This document shows, in pieces, positions 55,279 through 64,000 of a stretch of DNA of 64,000 nucleotides (position 1 is its first letter; the number at the start of each line of letters is the position of its first letter). The stretch is from Anatilimnocola aggregata (GTDB lineage Bacteria; Planctomycetota; Planctomycetia; Pirellulales; Pirellulaceae): assembly GCF_007747655.1 (NCBI RefSeq), contig NZ_CP036274.1, positions 5,456,001 to 5,520,000 on the forward strand. Reading direction: 5' to 3'. The translations under genes and the position numbers were made by a program. A model generated the notes under the pieces. That model did not search any database, was not told the origin of the DNA, and saw only the letters and a list, made by a program, of their open reading frames with translations.

Positions 55279-56106
55279 CTAGTGAGTCATGGCGTAAGTC
55301 ACGATGTTGATGCCCATTGGGTACGAATACTTCTCCGACATCTCTTTAAAATATTGCGGGTCCATCCCTTCTCGCTCCCAGCCGTCACCCAGGTCGGTGT
55401 TGTGGCAAATGATGACCATCATTCGCCCTTCGTCATCGAAGATGCCGCGGTAGTGAGCCTCGTCGGCATCGGCCCGCTCGGTGGTGTAACCGCTATACCA
55501 GGCATGAATGCTGGGAACTTGCGGCTTCTTTTTCAGGTCGTACACGCAGTGGAAGATCTCGTGCTCAAGCGGTAATTCGACCGGTTCGCGGTTGGGGAAG
55601 ACTCGCTTCATATTTTCGTAGAGCGTGGCGTATTCGTCTTCGCCCCAAAAATCGTCGACCATTAAAAAGCCACCATTCAGCAGGTAACGGCGAAGCGCGG
55701 TGACCTCTTCATCGCGGAGCCACATGCGGCCGGGCTCGATGATGTAGATAAACGGATAGTCGAACAGTTCGTCGTCGGTCAGTTCGAGAATCTTGCCGTG
55801 CGGATCGACCTCAAGCGAAGTAAGTTCGTGCAGGCGGTACGAGAAATTGAGATCGCTGTCCGGATAATCGGTGGCCCAATTGCCGCCGCCGCGTCCACGC
55901 CCGCCCGACGACTCGTAACGAATGCGGACAAAGGTGAAAGCATCACTTTTGAACTGCTCGTCGTTCTTCCATTCAGGGACACCATTGCGGTCGACCATCT
56001 CGGGACGGACTTCACGCGACCAGCGACTGCGCTGGGCAACGGCCAAAGCGGCCGTTGAGGCGAGCGTGATGGCGACGATGAGCGTAACGAGTCGAAAGCG
56101 ACTCAT
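55279..56106 (-). CDS. DUF4159 domain protein
   Basis: A 275-residue exported protein (signal MSRFRLVTLIVAITLAST to about AVAQ). The DUF4159 core is recognised by LTDDELFDYPFIYIIEPGRM, LRRYLLNGGFLMVDDFWGED and the C-terminal MMVIICHNTDLGDGWERE. DUF4159 has a flavodoxin or GATase-like fold and regularly accompanies MoxR operons, but its reaction is not known. Its start overlaps the previous gene by four bases. Confidence 0.93.
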   Translation of the reverse strand: MSRFRLVTLIVAITLASTAALAVAQRSRWSREVRPEMVDRNGVPEWKNDEQFKSDAFTFVRIRYESSGGRGRGGGNWATDYPDSDLNFSYRLHELTSLEVDPHGKILELTDDELFDYPFIYIIEPGRMWLRDEEVTALRRYLLNGGFLMVDDFWGEDEYATLYENMKRVFPNREPVELPLEHEIFHCVYDLKKKPQVPSIHAWYSGYTTERADADEAHYRGIFDDEGRMMVIICHNTDLGDGWEREGMDPQYFKEMSEKYSYPMGINIVTYAMTH

Positions 56107-58865
56107 GGAGTTTTCTCCGGCGCGGCGGGCAAGTCGGATTGAGAGGCAGATGCGGGCTTATCGGCAGGGAGAGGTGGTGTGGGGACTGCGGCGACCAATT
56201 CCAGCAGCAAGTTTTGGGCGGCCTGATAGCGGGGAGTCTCTTCGAGTGCCAGTAGCGCTTCGCGCTTGGCAGCGGCGAGCTGACCCTGTTTTTGCAAGGC
56301 AGTGGCCAGCTTGAAGTGGAGTTCAGCGCGGTCGAACGGATCGAGCAATAGGAGCGCGCGATAACTGTCGGCAACGAGGCGTTGATCGTTCAGTTGTTCA
56401 GCCGCTGTCGCAGCCTGGCGATGAATGGCGGGGAGGAGCGGATTCACCGCGAGTGCGCGAAGCGCGTACTTCTTGGCTGGCTCCCAATCCTTCGCTGCTG
56501 CAGCCAGTTCATTCAACCGCGTGAGCATGTCCAAATCGCTGGCCGAGAGTGCGGCCAACTTCTCGAGCACAGCGCGCTCTTGTTTGGCATCTTTCGCTTC
56601 GCGATGAATCCGCGCGAGGAGTGCATAAGGACCGCCGGGGCTAGCGTCATGGGGATATAGCTGTGTCATCTTGGTCAGGGTGGCCTGTGCGGCCGGCCAA
56701 TCCTTGGCCTGTAATTGCTGAGCGGCTAACCGCCCCAGCGCAATGTAGTTCGTCGGGTGATCCTTGAGCCAGGTGCTGATTTCGTCAGCAGTTGCGCGCT
56801 TGGGCAACTCGGGCTCGGTCCAATCGGCCAGGGGAGCCATCGCTTTGGCTTGTTCGCGGGCATATTTGGCGAACTCGTCGTCTAAGGTCGCAATGGAGCC
56901 GGTATAGCGGCCGAGTGATTCGTTAATCGGCATGCCCACGCTCAAATCGACAAGTAAGCGCTCGAGCTTGTCGCGGCCATATTTCTCCAGGAAGAACTTC
57001 ACCACCAGCGACGATTCGAGATAGGCGAACTGCAGATGGGCGGGCGAAGCCGGGCTGAGAAAAGCACCGCTCAGTTTGCTGACCGGCGTGAGTTCATCGC
57101 CGAGCAACATTTCGCGATAGCGGGGCGTAATCGCCTGCCCCCAGGTCGGGTCTTCGGCTCCTTCTTCATAGACCGAGATTCCTTCGCTGAGCCAGCGCGG
57201 CATTTTGTTCTTGGTTTTCGTCAGCGTGACAACGTGACAGAACTCATGCCAGAGCGTGGCTTCCCAGCAGGCGGGCGAAGTACCTTGCGAAGCGGGACTC
57301 GGGGCAGTGATCACCGTGCCAAAGCAGACGCCGAGAAAACCACTGCCGCCGGGCATGCCAAACGTCCGAATGGCAAAGTCCTGCTGCTTGGGAAACATCT
57401 CGACAATGATCGGCTGCTCGAGCGTGACCTTATACTTCTCGCAGAGTTCCTTCTTAGCCCGCTGCAACAACGCGAGGACTCGCTGGCCATAGATGTCGGC
57501 TTCGCGCGCGTCCATTCGCACCTGCAAGCCGTCCGCTTCTAGAGTGCGGAACTTCGCCAGGTGCTCCTGCAGCGTGACGAGGTTATGCGCGAGGACGTTG
57601 TAGCCATCGGCGGCGTACACTTCCTCGGCCAGTTTCAATCCTTCTTCTTCCTGCCCTAGCCGGAGTAAATCTTGCGCGAGTTGAATCTTGGCGACGAGAT
57701 ACTTGGGGTCTGACTTAAGCGCCTGGCGCTGATAGGCCGAGCCTTCGGCGAAGCGATACTTTTGCGATAACTTCTGCCCGATGACGTAATCGACTTCCGG
57801 ATTCGCCGGCCACGATTTGAGCGCTGCGGCCCGCAGTTGTTTTTCCTGATCGAGCTTATTGCGAAGGTGGGCGATCACCGCTCGATAAGCGAGCGCCCGC
57901 GGCTGTTGCGGGTTGATGGTGAGCACCTGCAGCAGCTGCTTCTCAGCTTCGTCGTATTGCTCCGAATCGATCTGTTCGTCAGCGACCATTAGCAAGGCAG
58001 CCACATGACGCGGATTGAGCGCGAGTGTGGCTTGCAGGGCCGCATCGGCCTTTTTCGAATCGCTGGGGGCAAACGCCCGCGCGACACCAAAGTGGGCCGC
58101 GGGATTTTCAGCATCGAGTTTGACCCCCTGCTGAAACGAGTCGCCAGCCAGTTTGTAGTCGTGCTTATCGAGCGCCAGGTCGCCGATAGCCAACCAGACA
58201 TCGACATTCGTCGGCTGGCGGCGCTTGGCCTCGTTATAGATCTTGGTCAGGACCTGTTTCGGATCGGTTTGCTGGCTGAGCATCCAGCGGCCAATCACCA
58301 GCTGACTCGTCAAGTCTGAGTAGCGCCACGGCGCTTGCTGCAGCAGGCCCACGATCTCGGCATTGAATTTGTCCGCCCGTTCCAATTGCTGCGTGTGGCG
58401 ACAAACGTCGCGCCCCAGCCAGCGCAACTGCACGCTGCCGTTTAGCTTGGCCAGCGCGGCATCGAGCGATTTGGCTGCGTCCGCGTAACGACCAACGGTC
58501 ATCTCGGCCTGAATCTTCAGCACCCAGGCCGGCTCGTGATAGTCGTTCTGCGTGACGAGTTCGGTCGCCTGTTCGATGCACTCGGCATACTTGCCCGTGC
58601 GAAATTGAGTGGTCGCTTCGACAAGATCGGCAGCTGCAGATACACCGGCCGAGACAACGAAACCGAGGCAGCAGGCAAATGCACAAATTAGTCCGCCGCG
58701 TAAACGAGCTAGAAGTGCCCGGCCGAGATGAACTGCAACTCTCCCTTGCTGACGCGTCGGGCTACTAACTCTCCCTCGCTGATGCGTAGGGCTATTAAAG
58801 ACAACTTCGCCCTGGCCGCGAGTTAAGCGGCTAACCACGTATCCCTTACGTTGGCGAGCGAGCAT
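56103..58865 (-). CDS. TPR protein with HExxH metallopeptidase domain, repeat in 5' end
   Basis: A 920-residue protein, first gene of the operon. Many TPR units lie on both sides of a gluzincin domain with H540-E-F-C-H544 and a downstream glutamate in RWLSEGISVYEEG (about 570), the pattern of the peptidase MA family. A signal peptide (LICAFACCLGFVVSAGVSAA) appears only at about residues 60-80. The preceding 55 residues are basic and polar and include SPTHQRGRVSSPTRQQGRV, the translation of two copies of the dispersed repeat. The ATG at 58865 has AAGGA eight bases upstream, and no ATG, GTG or TTG lies between the repeat and the signal peptide. Confidence 0.88.
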   Translation of the reverse strand: MLARQRKGYVVSRLTRGQGEVVFNSPTHQRGRVSSPTRQQGRVAVHLGRALLARLRGGLICAFACCLGFVVSAGVSAAADLVEATTQFRTGKYAECIEQATELVTQNDYHEPAWVLKIQAEMTVGRYADAAKSLDAALAKLNGSVQLRWLGRDVCRHTQQLERADKFNAEIVGLLQQAPWRYSDLTSQLVIGRWMLSQQTDPKQVLTKIYNEAKRRQPTNVDVWLAIGDLALDKHDYKLAGDSFQQGVKLDAENPAAHFGVARAFAPSDSKKADAALQATLALNPRHVAALLMVADEQIDSEQYDEAEKQLLQVLTINPQQPRALAYRAVIAHLRNKLDQEKQLRAAALKSWPANPEVDYVIGQKLSQKYRFAEGSAYQRQALKSDPKYLVAKIQLAQDLLRLGQEEEGLKLAEEVYAADGYNVLAHNLVTLQEHLAKFRTLEADGLQVRMDAREADIYGQRVLALLQRAKKELCEKYKVTLEQPIIVEMFPKQQDFAIRTFGMPGGSGFLGVCFGTVITAPSPASQGTSPACWEATLWHEFCHVVTLTKTKNKMPRWLSEGISVYEEGAEDPTWGQAITPRYREMLLGDELTPVSKLSGAFLSPASPAHLQFAYLESSLVVKFFLEKYGRDKLERLLVDLSVGMPINESLGRYTGSIATLDDEFAKYAREQAKAMAPLADWTEPELPKRATADEISTWLKDHPTNYIALGRLAAQQLQAKDWPAAQATLTKMTQLYPHDASPGGPYALLARIHREAKDAKQERAVLEKLAALSASDLDMLTRLNELAAAAKDWEPAKKYALRALAVNPLLPAIHRQAATAAEQLNDQRLVADSYRALLLLDPFDRAELHFKLATALQKQGQLAAAKREALLALEETPRYQAAQNLLLELVAAVPTPPLPADKPASASQSDLPAAPEKTP
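58737..58796. repeat. Two 30-base direct copies of the dispersed repeat
   Basis: Two tandem units (58737-58766 and 58767-58796), beginning AACTCTCCC, share GCTGA-GCGT--GGGCTA and match the right arm of the inverted repeat at 8952-8972 with a few changes. They lie inside the 5' coding end of the TPR peptidase gene, on the opposite sense, where they encode the SPTxQxGRV repeat of the protein. Confidence 0.75.
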
Positions 58866-59034: not shown

Positions 59035-59970
59035 ATGTCCGACCAAGCTGCCGAAACACCTCCTGAGCCTGAGTTCAATCCCGCGGTTGAGCCAGACAGA
59101 TTGCCGCGCTCGGTTGTGGTACCGCTCGCGCCTGTGTTGCTGGTGGTCGCCATTGCTAACCTGGCAGTCGCGCCGCTGATGAAAGCGATTTCACCGCACG
59201 ATTCCAGTTCGTTCATTGTCTACACGAGTTTCGGCGTGATCGCTTCGCAACTTGGTTTGCTGAGTCTGGGAGTCGTTCTCGGTCAGGAAGAATTCTGGCG
59301 GCGAACGGCAGTGAACTGGGGAGTGGGGCTGCTACTACTATTCTGCTTGTCGGTAGGCTCTGCCGCGGCCGATCAGACTAGCCACGGACGGTCGCACGAA
59401 CCACTGGGGCCGCGACAGGTGGTCTGCCTCGTGCCCCTGATCTTTCTTGGCGCACAGGTACCTTTGTGGATCGCCCGCACTATGTTTGGCTGGCGCTTGG
59501 TGCGCGCGGCGAATGGGCCACTGGGGGAAAGTAAGCCGAGCGCGTTCAGTCCCGAACCTCACCTGACACTGCGCGATCTCTTCAGCGGAACCGCGATTGT
59601 GGCCATTACCTTGGGAATTGCCCGCCTGGCAACGGGCGAACAATCGGCTCTTAGCCGCTCCGAGTTTTGGCTGGCAGCTGGCCTGGGGAGTCTGGGCGCA
59701 GCTGCGATTTCGCTCATTAGTCTATTACCGTTGCTCCGCCTCTTTTTTTCGGCCGAGCTAGGCAGCGCCTGGTTCTTTGCGCTCCCCTATGGGTTCTTCA
59801 TCGGCGTGATTCTCCTGGCCCTGCCCCTGTCTCGACTCATCGGAGCCAGGCCCGATGCGATGCAAATCTTCGGCTTCTTCTGCGCCATTTTCGGACTCAT
59901 CGCCTCACTCGGCGCTGGCCTGACGCTCATCTGCCGGTCAGGCTGGCAGTTGCAACGAGGTAAAGGATGA
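59035..59970 (+). CDS. Tandem membrane protein, unit 1
   Basis: A 311-residue protein with about eight hydrophobic segments and short loops; cytoplasmic N-terminus with many prolines. Landmarks shared with the three following units are SQLGLLSLGVVLGQEEFWRR, the signature QVPLWIARTMFGWRLV, LFSGTAIVAITLGIARL and the ending GWQLQ. No known family is recognised. ATG 59035 is used; a GTG at 59029 is possible. Its stop overlaps the next start (ATGA). Confidence 0.8.
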   Translation: MSDQAAETPPEPEFNPAVEPDRLPRSVVVPLAPVLLVVAIANLAVAPLMKAISPHDSSSFIVYTSFGVIASQLGLLSLGVVLGQEEFWRRTAVNWGVGLLLLFCLSVGSAAADQTSHGRSHEPLGPRQVVCLVPLIFLGAQVPLWIARTMFGWRLVRAANGPLGESKPSAFSPEPHLTLRDLFSGTAIVAITLGIARLATGEQSALSRSEFWLAAGLGSLGAAAISLISLLPLLRLFFSAELGSAWFFALPYGFFIGVILLALPLSRLIGARPDAMQIFGFFCAIFGLIASLGAGLTLICRSGWQLQRGKG

Positions 59971-60977
59971 CCAGCAATTTGTTAGCTCCTGAGAAAGCAC
60001 CCGTGATTAGCCAGAGCGAGACTCGACCGTTGAAGGTCAACGACAAGCAAAAGTGGTATCAACGATCCTTCGACCGATCCATGGGACTACTGCTGCTTCC
60101 TACCGGCCTGGTGAATTTGACGCTGGTGATTCTTGCCGATGAACGAGGCTCAGGGCGAGACTCCGCCACCGGGCAAGGATTGGCGGTGGGCTTGGTCATG
60201 GCGCAAGCTTGTCTGATCAGCATCGGAATTACCCTCGACAGTCAGCCATTTTGGCGTCGACTGCTCATCTACTGGAGCTACCTCTTCGGACTACTCGCGT
60301 GCTGGAGCGCCGGTTATGCCCTGTGGTTAATCGGTGACGCCAGCCGCGACACGACAGAAAACTGGATTGAACTCAGCAAGGACACGGGCCTGCTCTTGTG
60401 CTTAGTGCCGCTCGTCTCAATCGCCATGCAAGTGCCGCTCTGGATCGCACGCGCACTCTTCGGCTGGCGAATTGTGCTGCATGGGGAAGGAGCCTCATCG
60501 AATCACTCGGCTCAAGATGATCGGCTGGCCTTGAGTCACTTTTTTATCGGCACAGCGATTGTGGCCATCGCCTTCGCTGGCTGGCGGGCCGTTGGCAGTT
60601 TTACGCCTGTAGCGCCACAACAATTGGTACGCGCCCATCTCACAGGCTGCGGATTCGCTTTGGTAACGAGCCTGTTGGCGGCCGTTCCTTTCAGCCGCCT
60701 AGGCTTGGGACCGCTTAAAACCGACAGTGCATTTCTGATTCTCGGCAGCAATTCGCTCGCAAGTACAATCGCCCTCACGATTTTTCTCAGCAGTACCAGC
60801 GGTGACATTGACGTATCAGCACTGTCCTTGTGTCTCTTCGGCTCTTTCACCGGCAGCCTGCTGTTATCCATGATGATCCTGCGCAACTGCGGTTGGCGCA
60901 TGATCTGGAACGGAGCCACTTGGCCCGTGGTGAACGCAACGAGCAGCCCAGAGTCCGCTAATACGACTTCGCAATGA
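59967..60977 (+). CDS. Tandem membrane protein, unit 2
   Basis: A 336-residue paralogue of unit 1, with a longer hydrophilic N-terminus. Shared landmarks: FWRRLLIYWSYLFGLL, QVPLWIARALFGWRIV, FFIGTAIVAIAFAGWRAV, GWRMIW near the end. The final residues ESANTTSQ are encoded within a sequence that is a copy of the proS 3' end in antisense, so the natural end of the protein was replaced by a duplication. GAGG precedes the start by five bases, within the end of unit 1. Confidence 0.8.
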   Translation: MTSNLLAPEKAPVISQSETRPLKVNDKQKWYQRSFDRSMGLLLLPTGLVNLTLVILADERGSGRDSATGQGLAVGLVMAQACLISIGITLDSQPFWRRLLIYWSYLFGLLACWSAGYALWLIGDASRDTTENWIELSKDTGLLLCLVPLVSIAMQVPLWIARALFGWRIVLHGEGASSNHSAQDDRLALSHFFIGTAIVAIAFAGWRAVGSFTPVAPQQLVRAHLTGCGFALVTSLLAAVPFSRLGLGPLKTDSAFLILGSNSLASTIALTIFLSSTSGDIDVSALSLCLFGSFTGSLLLSMMILRNCGWRMIWNGATWPVVNATSSPESANTTSQ

Positions 60978-60998
60978 TCGCCCGTTTATTGGTGGGCT
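60955..60998 (-). pseudogene. Remnant of the proS 3' end
   Basis: These 44 bases match 63004-63047, the last codons of proS, at 41 positions. In the minus-strand proS frame the remnant reads PTNKRAIIAKSY then TAG, compared with PTSKRAIIAKSY then TAG in the real gene. It overlaps the 3' end of unit 2. The distance between the copies is 2049 bases. Confidence 0.85.
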
Positions 60999-61024
60999 AG
61001 CAGTTGCAACGAGGTAAAGCATGA
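60995..61024 (+). repeat. Copy of the unit 1 tail before unit 3
   Basis: Thirty bases match 59941-59970 at 28 positions. In unit 1 they encode GWQLQRGKG and stop and contain the ribosome site for unit 2; here they are noncoding but provide the same GAGG for unit 3. The first four bases also belong to the proS remnant, so this is the junction of a tandem duplication. Confidence 0.85.
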
Positions 61025-62121
61025 GCGAAGTACCCATCGGCGGTGAAGTGAGTGAAGCAAGATTTCCGTTAACCTGGCGAGAACGTGTTGCAGCGCAATT
61101 GAAAAGACGTTCGTATTGGTTTCCACTCCTCGCCGTCGTGCTCTTGCTAATACCGGCTGACTTCGTAGTCACGAAGGGAGTTTGGAGCGGCGAGCCGATC
61201 ACTTTCCTGTTGATTCCACTGGCGATGATCGCCGCCCAGATCAGCTTGGGGTCTTTGGGGCTTGTGCTCGGAGCCGGTACGTTCGGCAAGCGCCTGCTGA
61301 TGTTTGGCACAGGCTTGCTGCCGTGCATCGCGGCCTATCTGTGCGGTTGGCGGGCTTTCGACAGCTACTCGCGAGAATGGCCCAGCACACCTTGGAGTTG
61401 GAATGGCATCTTGATGCTGATCTTTGTGATCAGCGCGATGCTCGGTGCGCAGTTTCCCTTGTGGCTGGCTCGGCTGTCGTTCGGCTGGCGATTCGTGCGC
61501 TGCGGTACCGATCAAGCCAGTGTGCCTGACGCCAAGCTTTCGATTCTCGATCTGCTGATGACAACGACTATGTTTGCAATCGCATTGGGCGTGGTGCGGT
61601 TTAGCGTCGTCTCGATCCAGGCAGATCTGCAAATGACGGCACTGATGATTGCCTCCGTTTTGGTCGCTGGTTTCAGCGCCCTGCTCACAGCAATCATCAC
61701 GTTACCACTGACGGTCTACTTCCTGGGGAACCACTCACTGAAGACGGCTTGGTGCGTAGCGCTGCTCACGTATCCGTTAGGGTTTGCAGTGCTTTGTCGC
61801 GTTTGCACCTTCTTCATGCCGCTGCATTTTGCAATGTCGGTGGGGGCCGCCGCGCTCCTCATAGGGCTTGCACACACCGTTAGTTTCGCGGCCGGCCTGC
61901 TCCTGCTGCGAACTGGCAATTGGCAACTGCTGCGTCGCGTCCGGACCGAGCCTTCGCGCTGGCGCGTGCGCGCTCAGCAGTTGTGTGAGCGCGGATACTC
62001 GCGCGGATACAAACTTTATCAATCGTACGACTGGACGAATTCGGTGTGGCCGTTGCTATGGCAATGGTGGTGGCCGCTCGTGATGCTGAACTATGTGATC
62101 CACATTGCAATTTTTTTTTAA
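61021..62121 (+). CDS. Tandem membrane protein, unit 3, with start of unit 4 at its end
   Basis: A 366-residue paralogue. The unit itself (AAQISLGSLGLVLGAGTFGKR, QFPLWLARLSFGWRFV, LLMTTTMFAIALGVVRFSV) ends near residue 300 at GNWQLLRRV, the position where the other units stop. About 60 further residues follow: a basic linker (RTEPSRWRVRAQQLCERGYS) and a hydrophobic segment (LLWQWWWPLVMLNYVIHIAI) that corresponds to the first membrane helix of a next unit. The frame is then closed by TAA just after nine T. This suggests a two-unit protein split by a frameshift. Confidence 0.75.
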   Translation: MSEVPIGGEVSEARFPLTWRERVAAQLKRRSYWFPLLAVVLLLIPADFVVTKGVWSGEPITFLLIPLAMIAAQISLGSLGLVLGAGTFGKRLLMFGTGLLPCIAAYLCGWRAFDSYSREWPSTPWSWNGILMLIFVISAMLGAQFPLWLARLSFGWRFVRCGTDQASVPDAKLSILDLLMTTTMFAIALGVVRFSVVSIQADLQMTALMIASVLVAGFSALLTAIITLPLTVYFLGNHSLKTAWCVALLTYPLGFAVLCRVCTFFMPLHFAMSVGAAALLIGLAHTVSFAAGLLLLRTGNWQLLRRVRTEPSRWRVRAQQLCERGYSRGYKLYQSYDWTNSVWPLLWQWWWPLVMLNYVIHIAIFF

Positions 62122-62863
62122 CTTGTCGCTCAATATCGACTTCGCGAACCACTTTGTGTCTGCGCAAATCGTGATTGCCAGTTTTGCGTTGGTGTTCAGC
62201 GGCGAGCCGTTTGGCCGTAGGTTACTCGCTCACTGGAGCTTGTTGCTCCTGTGCGCTGCGGCCTCGCAGGCAGGCAGGTTTACATTTGAAGACGGTTCGT
62301 ACTACGGTGGCAGTCACTTTTTGCTGTGGCTTCCGCTTTACTCGCTGGCCGCTCAATTGCCATTCTGGATCGCGCGAATGGGATTTGGCTGGCGCCTTGT
62401 TCGACTACACGCCAAACCGCCGCTCGAAGCTAAATTGCGCATTGCCGATCTGATGTTGGGGACGGCAATCATCGCGCTGGTGCTGGTATTTGTGAAGCCG
62501 TACTTGTCGAGGTTCGACATGATTCTTGGCTACAGCGCGATTTACGTATTCTGTTCTCTGGTAATCGCTTCTCCCCTGGCGCAGCTGTATCTCCGAGAAA
62601 GTCGTCACCACCAATGGGCGTGGGCGGCCGTAATCGCCTATCCGGTGATCGGTATAACACTGGTATTGGTGATCTCTGTGATAAGTGCTGTTTCGAATGG
62701 TATTGTGCAGCAGGTCTTGTCCTTTGTGGTGTTAGTGATTGTCATTCTCTGCCCGACAGTGGTGATGGCATTCACGTTTTCCCAGCTACGCACTGCAGGT
62801 TGGAGATTGGAGCGTGTTGAACGTGGAGAGCGACTTAGTTACACCGGAGCCCACGAAGCCTGA
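62105..62863 (+). CDS. Tandem membrane protein, unit 4, lacking its own N-terminus
   Basis: A 252-residue frame, shorter than the others because it begins after the first helix. Landmarks: SAQIVIASFALVFSGEPFGRR, QLPFWIARMGFGWRLV, LMLGTAIIALVLVFV, AGWRLERVERG. The only available starts are TTG at 62105 and 62120 with no ribosome site, so independent translation is doubtful. It overlaps unit 3 by 17 bases across the T run. It is more likely the second half of unit 3, reached by slippage or broken by one base. Confidence 0.65.
   Translation: MQFFFNLSLNIDFANHFVSAQIVIASFALVFSGEPFGRRLLAHWSLLLLCAAASQAGRFTFEDGSYYGGSHFLLWLPLYSLAAQLPFWIARMGFGWRLVRLHAKPPLEAKLRIADLMLGTAIIALVLVFVKPYLSRFDMILGYSAIYVFCSLVIASPLAQLYLRESRHHQWAWAAVIAYPVIGITLVLVISVISAVSNGIVQQVLSFVVLVIVILCPTVVMAFTFSQLRTAGWRLERVERGERLSYTGAHEA
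62111..62119 (+). other. T9 homopolymer at the unit 3 / unit 4 frame break
   Basis: Nine consecutive T separate the frame of unit 3 (ending ATT TTT TTT TAA) from that of unit 4. With eight T the reading would continue as IFFNLSLNIDF into unit 4. A homopolymer of this length is a typical site for replication or transcription slippage, and also for sequencing error. Confidence 0.8.
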
Positions 62864-63006
62864 GCAGGCGGGCTCTGCTCCAGCGATGAGCATCGTGTTG
62901 TCGCGAATCGAGCGGTCTGGAGTTGCAGTTACTGAGCTTCCATGAACAGAACGCTGCGACCGCGTACTGAGCGCCCCGAACAAGCTCCGGTGGGCGCAAT
63001 CGCCCG
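62864..63006. other. Convergent intergenic spacer before proS
   Basis: A spacer of 143 bases between unit 4 and the proS stop. A stem GAGCCC (62847-62852) with GGGCTC (62870-62875) reaches into the end of unit 4, without a T-run. Nothing else is recognised. Confidence 0.35.
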
Positions 63007-64000
63007 CTAATACGACTTCGCAATGATCGCCCGCTTGCTGGTGGGCTGGCCGGTGAAGATGCACTTGCCGGGAACATCTTCGAGACCGAGAGGCATGTTG
63101 CGGATCGTCAGCTTGTGCTGCTTGAGGAGCGCGTCGACTTCTTTGTTCTCGGTGAAGTGGCAGAGGGCGTAGCCGCCGTGAATCTCGGGATCTTTTTCGT
63201 TCTTGGGTGTGAACCAGGCAAGTAGTTCGTCGAGATTATCGATGGTGCGCGTGTTTTCTTCGCGCATCTTCAAGGCCTTTTGAAACAGGTTGTCTTGAAT
63301 GGCTTGCAGGCGGGCGGCGATGGTGGCGACCAGTTCGCTCCGTTCGACGCCGGCCTTTTCGCCCGTATCGCGGCGGGCGAGAAAGACGCCGTTCTTGGCT
63401 ATGTCTTTGGGGCCGATCTCGGCTCGCAATGGCACACCGCGCTTGATGTGATACCAGACTTTATCGCCGCCGCGGATGTCGCGGTCGTCGATATGCACCC
63501 GAATCTTTGTCTCCGCGAACAGCTGCGCTTCGAGTTCTTTCTTCAAGCTTTGCACGTACGGCAGTACCGCAGCTTTTTCTTCGTCGTTGCGATAGATGGG
63601 GAGCAGCACGATGTGCTTGGGGGCGAGCTTCGGCGGCAGCACCAGGCCATCGTCGTCACTGTGAGTCATGATCAGCCCGCCGATGAGCCGGGTCGATACA
63701 CCCCACGAAGTGGTCCAGGCCAGTTGCTCGGTGCCGTTCTGATCCTGAAACTTGATCCCCTGAGCCTTCGAAAAGTTCTGACCCAGGAAGTGGCTGGTGC
63801 CGGCTTGCAGGGCTTTGCGATCCTGCATCATCGCTTCGATCGAATACGTCGCGACGGCACCGGGGAAGCGTTCGCCAGCAGTCTTCTCGCCTTTGATGAC
63901 GGGCATCGCCATGTAGTTCTCGGCGAAGTCGGCATAAACGTCGAGCATCTTCATCGTCTCTTCGCGCGCTTCGGCCTCAGTGGCGTGGGCGGTGTGACCT
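63007..64000 (-). CDS. proS: Prolyl-tRNA synthetase (C-terminal part)
   Basis: Class II synthetase charging tRNA-Pro, of the archaeal/eukaryal-like type (ProS type 3): IKGEKTAGERFPGAVATYSI, QDRKALQAGTSHFLGQNFSK, TTSWGVSTRLIGGLIMTHSD with motif 3 characteristics, then the anticodon-binding domain (KHIVLLPIYRNDEEKAAVL, RDIRGGDKVWYHIKRGVPL) and the C-terminal extension ending in KRAIIAKSY. The frame is open through the window end (preceding residues TAHATEAEAREETMK), so the start and motifs 1-2 lie outside. Its 3' end was copied into the tandem membrane gene array. Confidence 0.95.
   Translation of the reverse strand, partial: GHTAHATEAEAREETMKMLDVYADFAENYMAMPVIKGEKTAGERFPGAVATYSIEAMMQDRKALQAGTSHFLGQNFSKAQGIKFQDQNGTEQLAWTTSWGVSTRLIGGLIMTHSDDDGLVLPPKLAPKHIVLLPIYRNDEEKAAVLPYVQSLKKELEAQLFAETKIRVHIDDRDIRGGDKVWYHIKRGVPLRAEIGPKDIAKNGVFLARRDTGEKAGVERSELVATIAARLQAIQDNLFQKALKMREENTRTIDNLDELLAWFTPKNEKDPEIHGGYALCHFTENKEVDALLKQHKLTIRNMPLGLEDVPGKCIFTGQPTSKRAIIAKSY

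Follow-up and report, generated by a model that had tools for sequence, protein, structure and literature searches.

A frame break at a run of nine T in a putative double-unit membrane protein gene of Anatilimnocola aggregata

In the genome of Anatilimnocola aggregata, two adjacent members of a tandem array of membrane proteins, units 3 and 4, most plausibly form one fused gene whose reading frame changes at a run of nine T (T9). The frame transition is real and lies within a fused and otherwise intact gene; we put at slightly above one in two the probability that it arose by a one-base change outside any programme, any slippage being no more than incidental. The window, that is, the entire stretch of 64,000 nucleotides analysed here, is part of a single 9,007,740-base contig. 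The features discussed below are summarized in Table 1.

Table 1. The membrane-unit array and its neighbours (positions in the window)
Feature	Position	Strand	Description
TPR protein	56103..58865	-	opposite side of array; synteny anchor, 75% identical in same-genus genome
Unit 1	59035..59970	+	311 aa from ATG; single-unit membrane protein; profile 5-310; TGA overlaps unit 2 ATG
Unit 2	59967..60977	+	336 aa; single-unit membrane protein
Seam between units 2 and 3	60955..61024	+	44 bases like proS 3' end (63004-63047, 93%) and 30 bases like unit 1/unit 2 junction (59941-59970, 93%)
Unit 3 with extension	61021..62121	+	ATG 61021 to TAA 62119-62121; 366 aa
Basic linker and hydrophobic stretch	61957..62110	+	unit 3 frame; codon frame, composition, hydropathy
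Unit 4	62099..62863	+	open in frame +1 relative to unit 3; ends with TGA 62861-62863
T9 run	62111-62119	+	site of frame transition; longest homopolymer in window
proS (proline--tRNA ligase)	63007..63999	-	5' end beyond window; 3' end matches part of seam

One gene or two

The frame shift is confined to positions 62099-62121, where the frames of units 3 and 4 overlap, and the T of the unit 3 stop codon TAA is the last T of the run. Skipping one U joins the two units into a product of 613 residues, which agrees with the length of about 610 residues that the preliminary description gave for the protein after removal of one T. The run itself, as ATT-TTT-TTT encoding I-F-F, is ordinary under local codon usage (0.06).

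Codon usage was scored after training on 46 long ORFs of the window and two further stretches of the same genome, with the array left out. Upstream of the run (61951-62110), the log-odds are +5.1 in the unit 3 frame, with -15.0 and -9.2 for the two remaining forward frames; downstream (62120-62860), they are +14.3 in the unit 4 frame versus -57.9 and -96.2. Resolved into steps of 90 bases, the signal is weak here and there, and at the very end of unit 4 the unit's own frame scores below zero. A GAGGTAAAG ribosome site precedes the ATG codons of both unit 2 and unit 3, and GAGGTAAAGG lies before unit 2. As the preliminary description had it, unit 4 lies in another frame with weak starts only: between 62099 and 62200, this frame contains TTG 62105, TTG 62123, GTG 62156, GTG 62171, TTG 62189 and GTG 62192, and inspection by eye detected neither a GGAGG-like nor a GAGGTAAAG site before any of these. 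The nearby ATG 62083, which follows GGTGGTGG, belongs to the unit 3 frame and reaches the same TAA.

The coding frame on both sides of T9, together with the missing start signal of unit 4, thus leads us to read units 3 and 4 as a fused double unit, as originally proposed. That unit 4 is instead a gene of its own, its translation restarting at TTG 62105 or 62123 close to the unit 3 stop, is highly unlikely: members of this family mostly occur as separate units, often closely packed one after another, and TTG 62123 begins one base past the TAA, but the candidate starts have no ribosome site, the restart product would be devoid of the first hydrophobic stretch, and codon usage in the linker favours the unit 3 frame.

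Unit 3 overruns the end of its family through a basic linker and a hydrophobic stretch and stops at T9, a claim of the preliminary description with which the profile, composition and hydropathy all agree. The family profile match stops at residue 312, leaving an extension of about 54 residues, which comprises a linker of 37 residues with 6 K/R and 2 D/E, followed by a segment whose Kyte-Doolittle mean, over 19 residues of the joined helix, is 1.71. From its position and hydrophobicity, this stretch may be the former N-terminus of unit 4, and we read the break as falling in or next to what would be the first helix of that unit. The placement of this helix in the unit 3 frame, also suggested at the outset, is consistent with position and hydrophobicity but gains nothing from the profile: a profile built without unit 4 leaves the extension unaligned (115.9 with the extension versus 118.2 without it), and a score equal to or better than that of the real extension was reached by 199 of 200 shuffled tails and by 99 of 100 pieces taken from the TPR protein. 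The profile match of unit 4 runs from model position 65 and, with the extension attached, still begins at position 71. The region of the extension is poorly conserved; among family frames outside the profile, 4 of 26 begin at position 52 or later and 22 at position 30 or earlier. Unit 4 contains no second break and retains the core motifs, so the frame break looks young.

A family of single units

All four units match the family profile A1, in which all four are included (8.3e-100 for unit 1, 1e-101 for unit 2, 6.5e-94 for unit 3 and 4.1e-74 for unit 4), and unit 4 scores 118 bits with the profile built without it. The core Q.PLW..R..FGWR.V...L.I.DL...T..VA is well kept across the four units, and units 2 and 3 are about 23% identical. 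Neither Pfam nor NCBIfam has a model for the units, the few matches all falling under the curated cut-offs. An internal two-fold repeat in each unit, with halves ending in GWR-like strands in the structural model, was considered and is not claimed, the only match being one of 16 columns with a probability of 1.7%. The predicted structure is of low confidence (mean pLDDT 60.4 for the best model and 43-45 for the other four) and was not used for function; a Foldseek search against solved structures yielded nothing at E <= 0.001.

Searches with the single proteins yielded matches in 5 of 98 genomes each, the own genome counted in, and none of the 98 relatives showed the fused arrangement; a scan of genome contigs with unit 3 as a single protein found no relative. 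The family profile recovers at least 102 matches in at least 65 of 241 family genomes, again including the own genome, these counts being lower bounds given that up to nine candidates were scored per genome. Among the matches listed, 96 of 102 open frames are 387 aa or less, too short for two units, and the six longer ones (508-807 aa) each consist of one unit followed, in the same frame, by C-terminal leucine-rich-repeat matches, below cut-off in one of the six (L064). No other double unit occurs among these matches (at least 102) in the 241 family genomes, in a search where a double unit broken in the present manner would count as two profile matches. The other sampled members share the core with units 3 and 4 but are single units, some of them with leucine-rich-repeat matches. 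In the preliminary description, relatives with separate proteins, each with its own start, were to count against the fusion; separate and often tandem units are what the family presents in general, but no relative with orthologues of the unit 3/4 pair was found, so the fusion is not cleanly refuted by this. Tight tandem packing occurs elsewhere as well: in one locus (L072), three units share a frame and are separated from one another by single stop codons, so the loss of one stop would be an easy route to fusion.

Homopolymer runs and the causes of the break

Several features of the T9 site fit known modes of recoding. Slippage of bacterial RNA polymerase on nine A or T is established (Baranov 2005, PMC1088944; Atkins 2016), and the site has the A/T homopolymer of about 8-9 or more at the frame transition that is typical of slippage genes. 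Baranov 2005 (PMC1088944) describes genes expressible through 9A/9T slippage whose homologues consist of one open frame. As in those genes, the nine-base run here lies where two frames overlap and the fused product would be larger; unlike in those genes, no homologue with a one-frame double unit was found, so that homology support for the fusion comes from single units. A precedent in architecture is tssM1 of Citrobacter rodentium (PMC4256274), a membrane-protein gene in which an interruption right behind A11 is overcome by slippage, with cDNAs containing 10 to 15 As from the 11, that is, with loss as well as gain of bases. In both cases, the stop directly follows the homopolymer and the rest of the gene is open in another frame; tssM1 differs in having A11 rather than T9, in that slippage is demonstrated and needed for function, and in that frameshifting has also been shown in a Yersinia homologue.

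Ribosomal frameshifting on the same bases is the other mode. The sequence UUU_UAA_C at 62116-62122 places a slippery P-site codon against a stop, as in the +1 site of prfB, with the U of the stop next and a C after it, and a +1 slip of the P-site tRNA on UUU_UAA would give a joined product identical to that from loss of one U. A 2025 survey of prfB (PMC12421855) reports 21 genomes with a poly-T form read by tRNA-Phe and accompanied by an SD-like element. By comparison, the T9 site differs in having no SD-like element, UAA in place of UGA, no regulatory logic and no conservation found; no stimulator of the prfB type is present three bases upstream, and no purine-rich stretch precedes the U run.

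A further parallel comes from dnaX. In the own genome (8367057-8368976), this gene, named by NCBIfam and Pfam, contains an in-frame A9, and A9 or A10 is present in 26 of 30 dnaX loci from the own genome and relatives of the order (codons 412-532 of the longest frame; the loci come from 30 of 40 matching genomes); within the order, both other frames reach a stop 0-28 codons past the run. Outside the order, such runs are found in both of the 2 loci from the same class and in 1 of the 27 from the rest of the phylum, a count that covers 29 of 53 other matching genomes by the longest frame only, with the frame possibly wrong in at least one locus (L191). By analogy, a conserved A9/A10 with nearby stops is the layout of the Thermus-type transcriptional slippage that would give tau and gamma; in one literature search, a single paper brought dnaX, transcriptional slippage and planctomycetes together, and planctomycetes appear in it as a table row. 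Given this conserved run of the Thermus type, slippage in this genome may be efficient enough to matter.

It is nevertheless improbable that T9 serves functional slippage or phase variation, yielding one-unit and two-unit proteins at a set ratio or switching between T8 and T9. The length of the run, the dnaX runs kept in the class and soon followed by stops in the two alternative frames, and the precedent of tssM1 all speak for such a role. Against it, no second genome with the arrangement was found (98 relatives, and 241 family genomes among the matches listed), no Shine-Dalgarno-like site lies just upstream of T9, the downstream fold is unremarkable (z -1.43, with 18 of 200 shuffles as good), and U9 requires the loss of one base or the gain of two. 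Slippage at T9 is plausible, yet, with no second genome and no visible stimulator, plausibility is not selection, and nothing in the sequences compared supports a conserved programme at this break. The titles and abstracts covered by a literature search, part of its matches, held nothing on planctomycete phase variation.

The main rival to an unprogrammed indel is an error of assembly or sequencing, such that the chromosome would have T8 and the gene would be an intact 613-aa double unit; we consider this unlikely, although a homopolymer miscounted by one base would give the same picture in a gene that is otherwise intact. According to Antonov 2013, singleton frame transitions are likely to be indel mutations or sequencing errors, with one class expected to be errors rather than real indels. 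To place T9 in context, every A/T run of at least 8 bases in the genome was scored, 56 in total (62 positions, the six nine-base runs being counted twice). Seventeen of these lie inside one open frame with the same best frame and a score above zero on both sides, two agree in best frame between the sides but have a stop in the interval, a frame change was flagged at three, and the remainder show no clear coding frame on both sides. Two of the flagged runs were rejected on inspection, L082 as an intergenic terminator-like run and L153 as a run just past a start codon, so that T9 is the only run of the 56 left breaking a gene. The nine-base A runs in dnaX and in an adenylate-kinase-like ORF are both in frame. 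That a single run of the 56 breaks a frame argues against systematic homopolymer errors, while one isolated error would still be compatible with it. The adenylate-kinase-like ORF, named by eye, carries its A9 (own genome, 7113517-7113525) about 13 codons before the stop.

T9 or A9 occurs at only 6 sites in the 9.0-Mb genome, which makes the coincidence with a frame change striking, though indels favour runs. This rarity, the slippage-type A9 of dnaX and the lack of profile support for the extension are the points weighed against the reading as an indel. Of the three causes envisaged in the preliminary description, a recent frameshift fits best, the arrangement being a singleton and the break looking young; phase variation or programmed slippage lacks comparative support, and sequencing error is the rival discussed above.

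Origin of the locus and its meaning

In the one same-genus genome compared, the 16 kb read beside the TPR gene contain no unit, nor was proS found there; DNA similarity stops about 85 bases past the TPR gene, and four family matches lie at other places. A contig scan with the TPR protein identified one named Planctomycetota MAG (57% identity), in which the TPR gene, the next gene and moxR are in the same order, with no unit in the 18.5 kb compared. At the 5' end of the TPR gene (58741-58798), a near-direct repeat of 28 bases in two copies was noticed by eye. Promoter and terminator scans remained at shuffle level.

The two pieces of the 70-base seam overlap by four bases; the junction piece brings a ribosome site, and the seam supplies the C-terminal tail of unit 2 and the ribosome site of unit 3. 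With its pieces 93% identical and the units about 23%, the seam is younger than the split between units 2 and 3. From these similarities, it appears that a short-homology crossover placed two diverged versions of the locus in tandem, the first ending in unit 2 and the second beginning with unit 3.

Under the favoured reading, that of an unprogrammed indel in a fused gene, units 3 and 4 would be a single gene for a two-unit polytopic membrane protein, formed when a neighbouring in-frame unit probably lost its boundary. A subsequent one-base change in the length of the T run in the junction helix would have put the second unit out of frame. The main product would then be unit 3, 366 aa long and carrying an additional hydrophobic tail at its C-terminus, and any 613-aa protein would stem from RNA polymerase incidentally skipping one U on the run or, alternatively, from a ribosomal +1 slip at UUU_UAA. 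Observed directly are the frame transition at T9, codon usage supporting the frame on each side, the missing start signal of unit 4 and, in the genomes searched, no relative with a double unit; the original fusion, which way the run changed in length and any leaky rescue are inferred.

It is very improbable that T9 is a working switch, with RNA polymerase slippage setting the ratio of one-unit to two-unit protein and homopolymer slippage being a general expression device in the class. If the break is only an indel, it would be a minor instance of a decaying gene within a tandem family that is expanding and has no Pfam or NCBIfam name, and would caution against annotating unit 4 as a separate gene. 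If slippage proved true, the number of units in a membrane protein would be set by slippage of RNA polymerase, with dnaX in the same organism for comparison.
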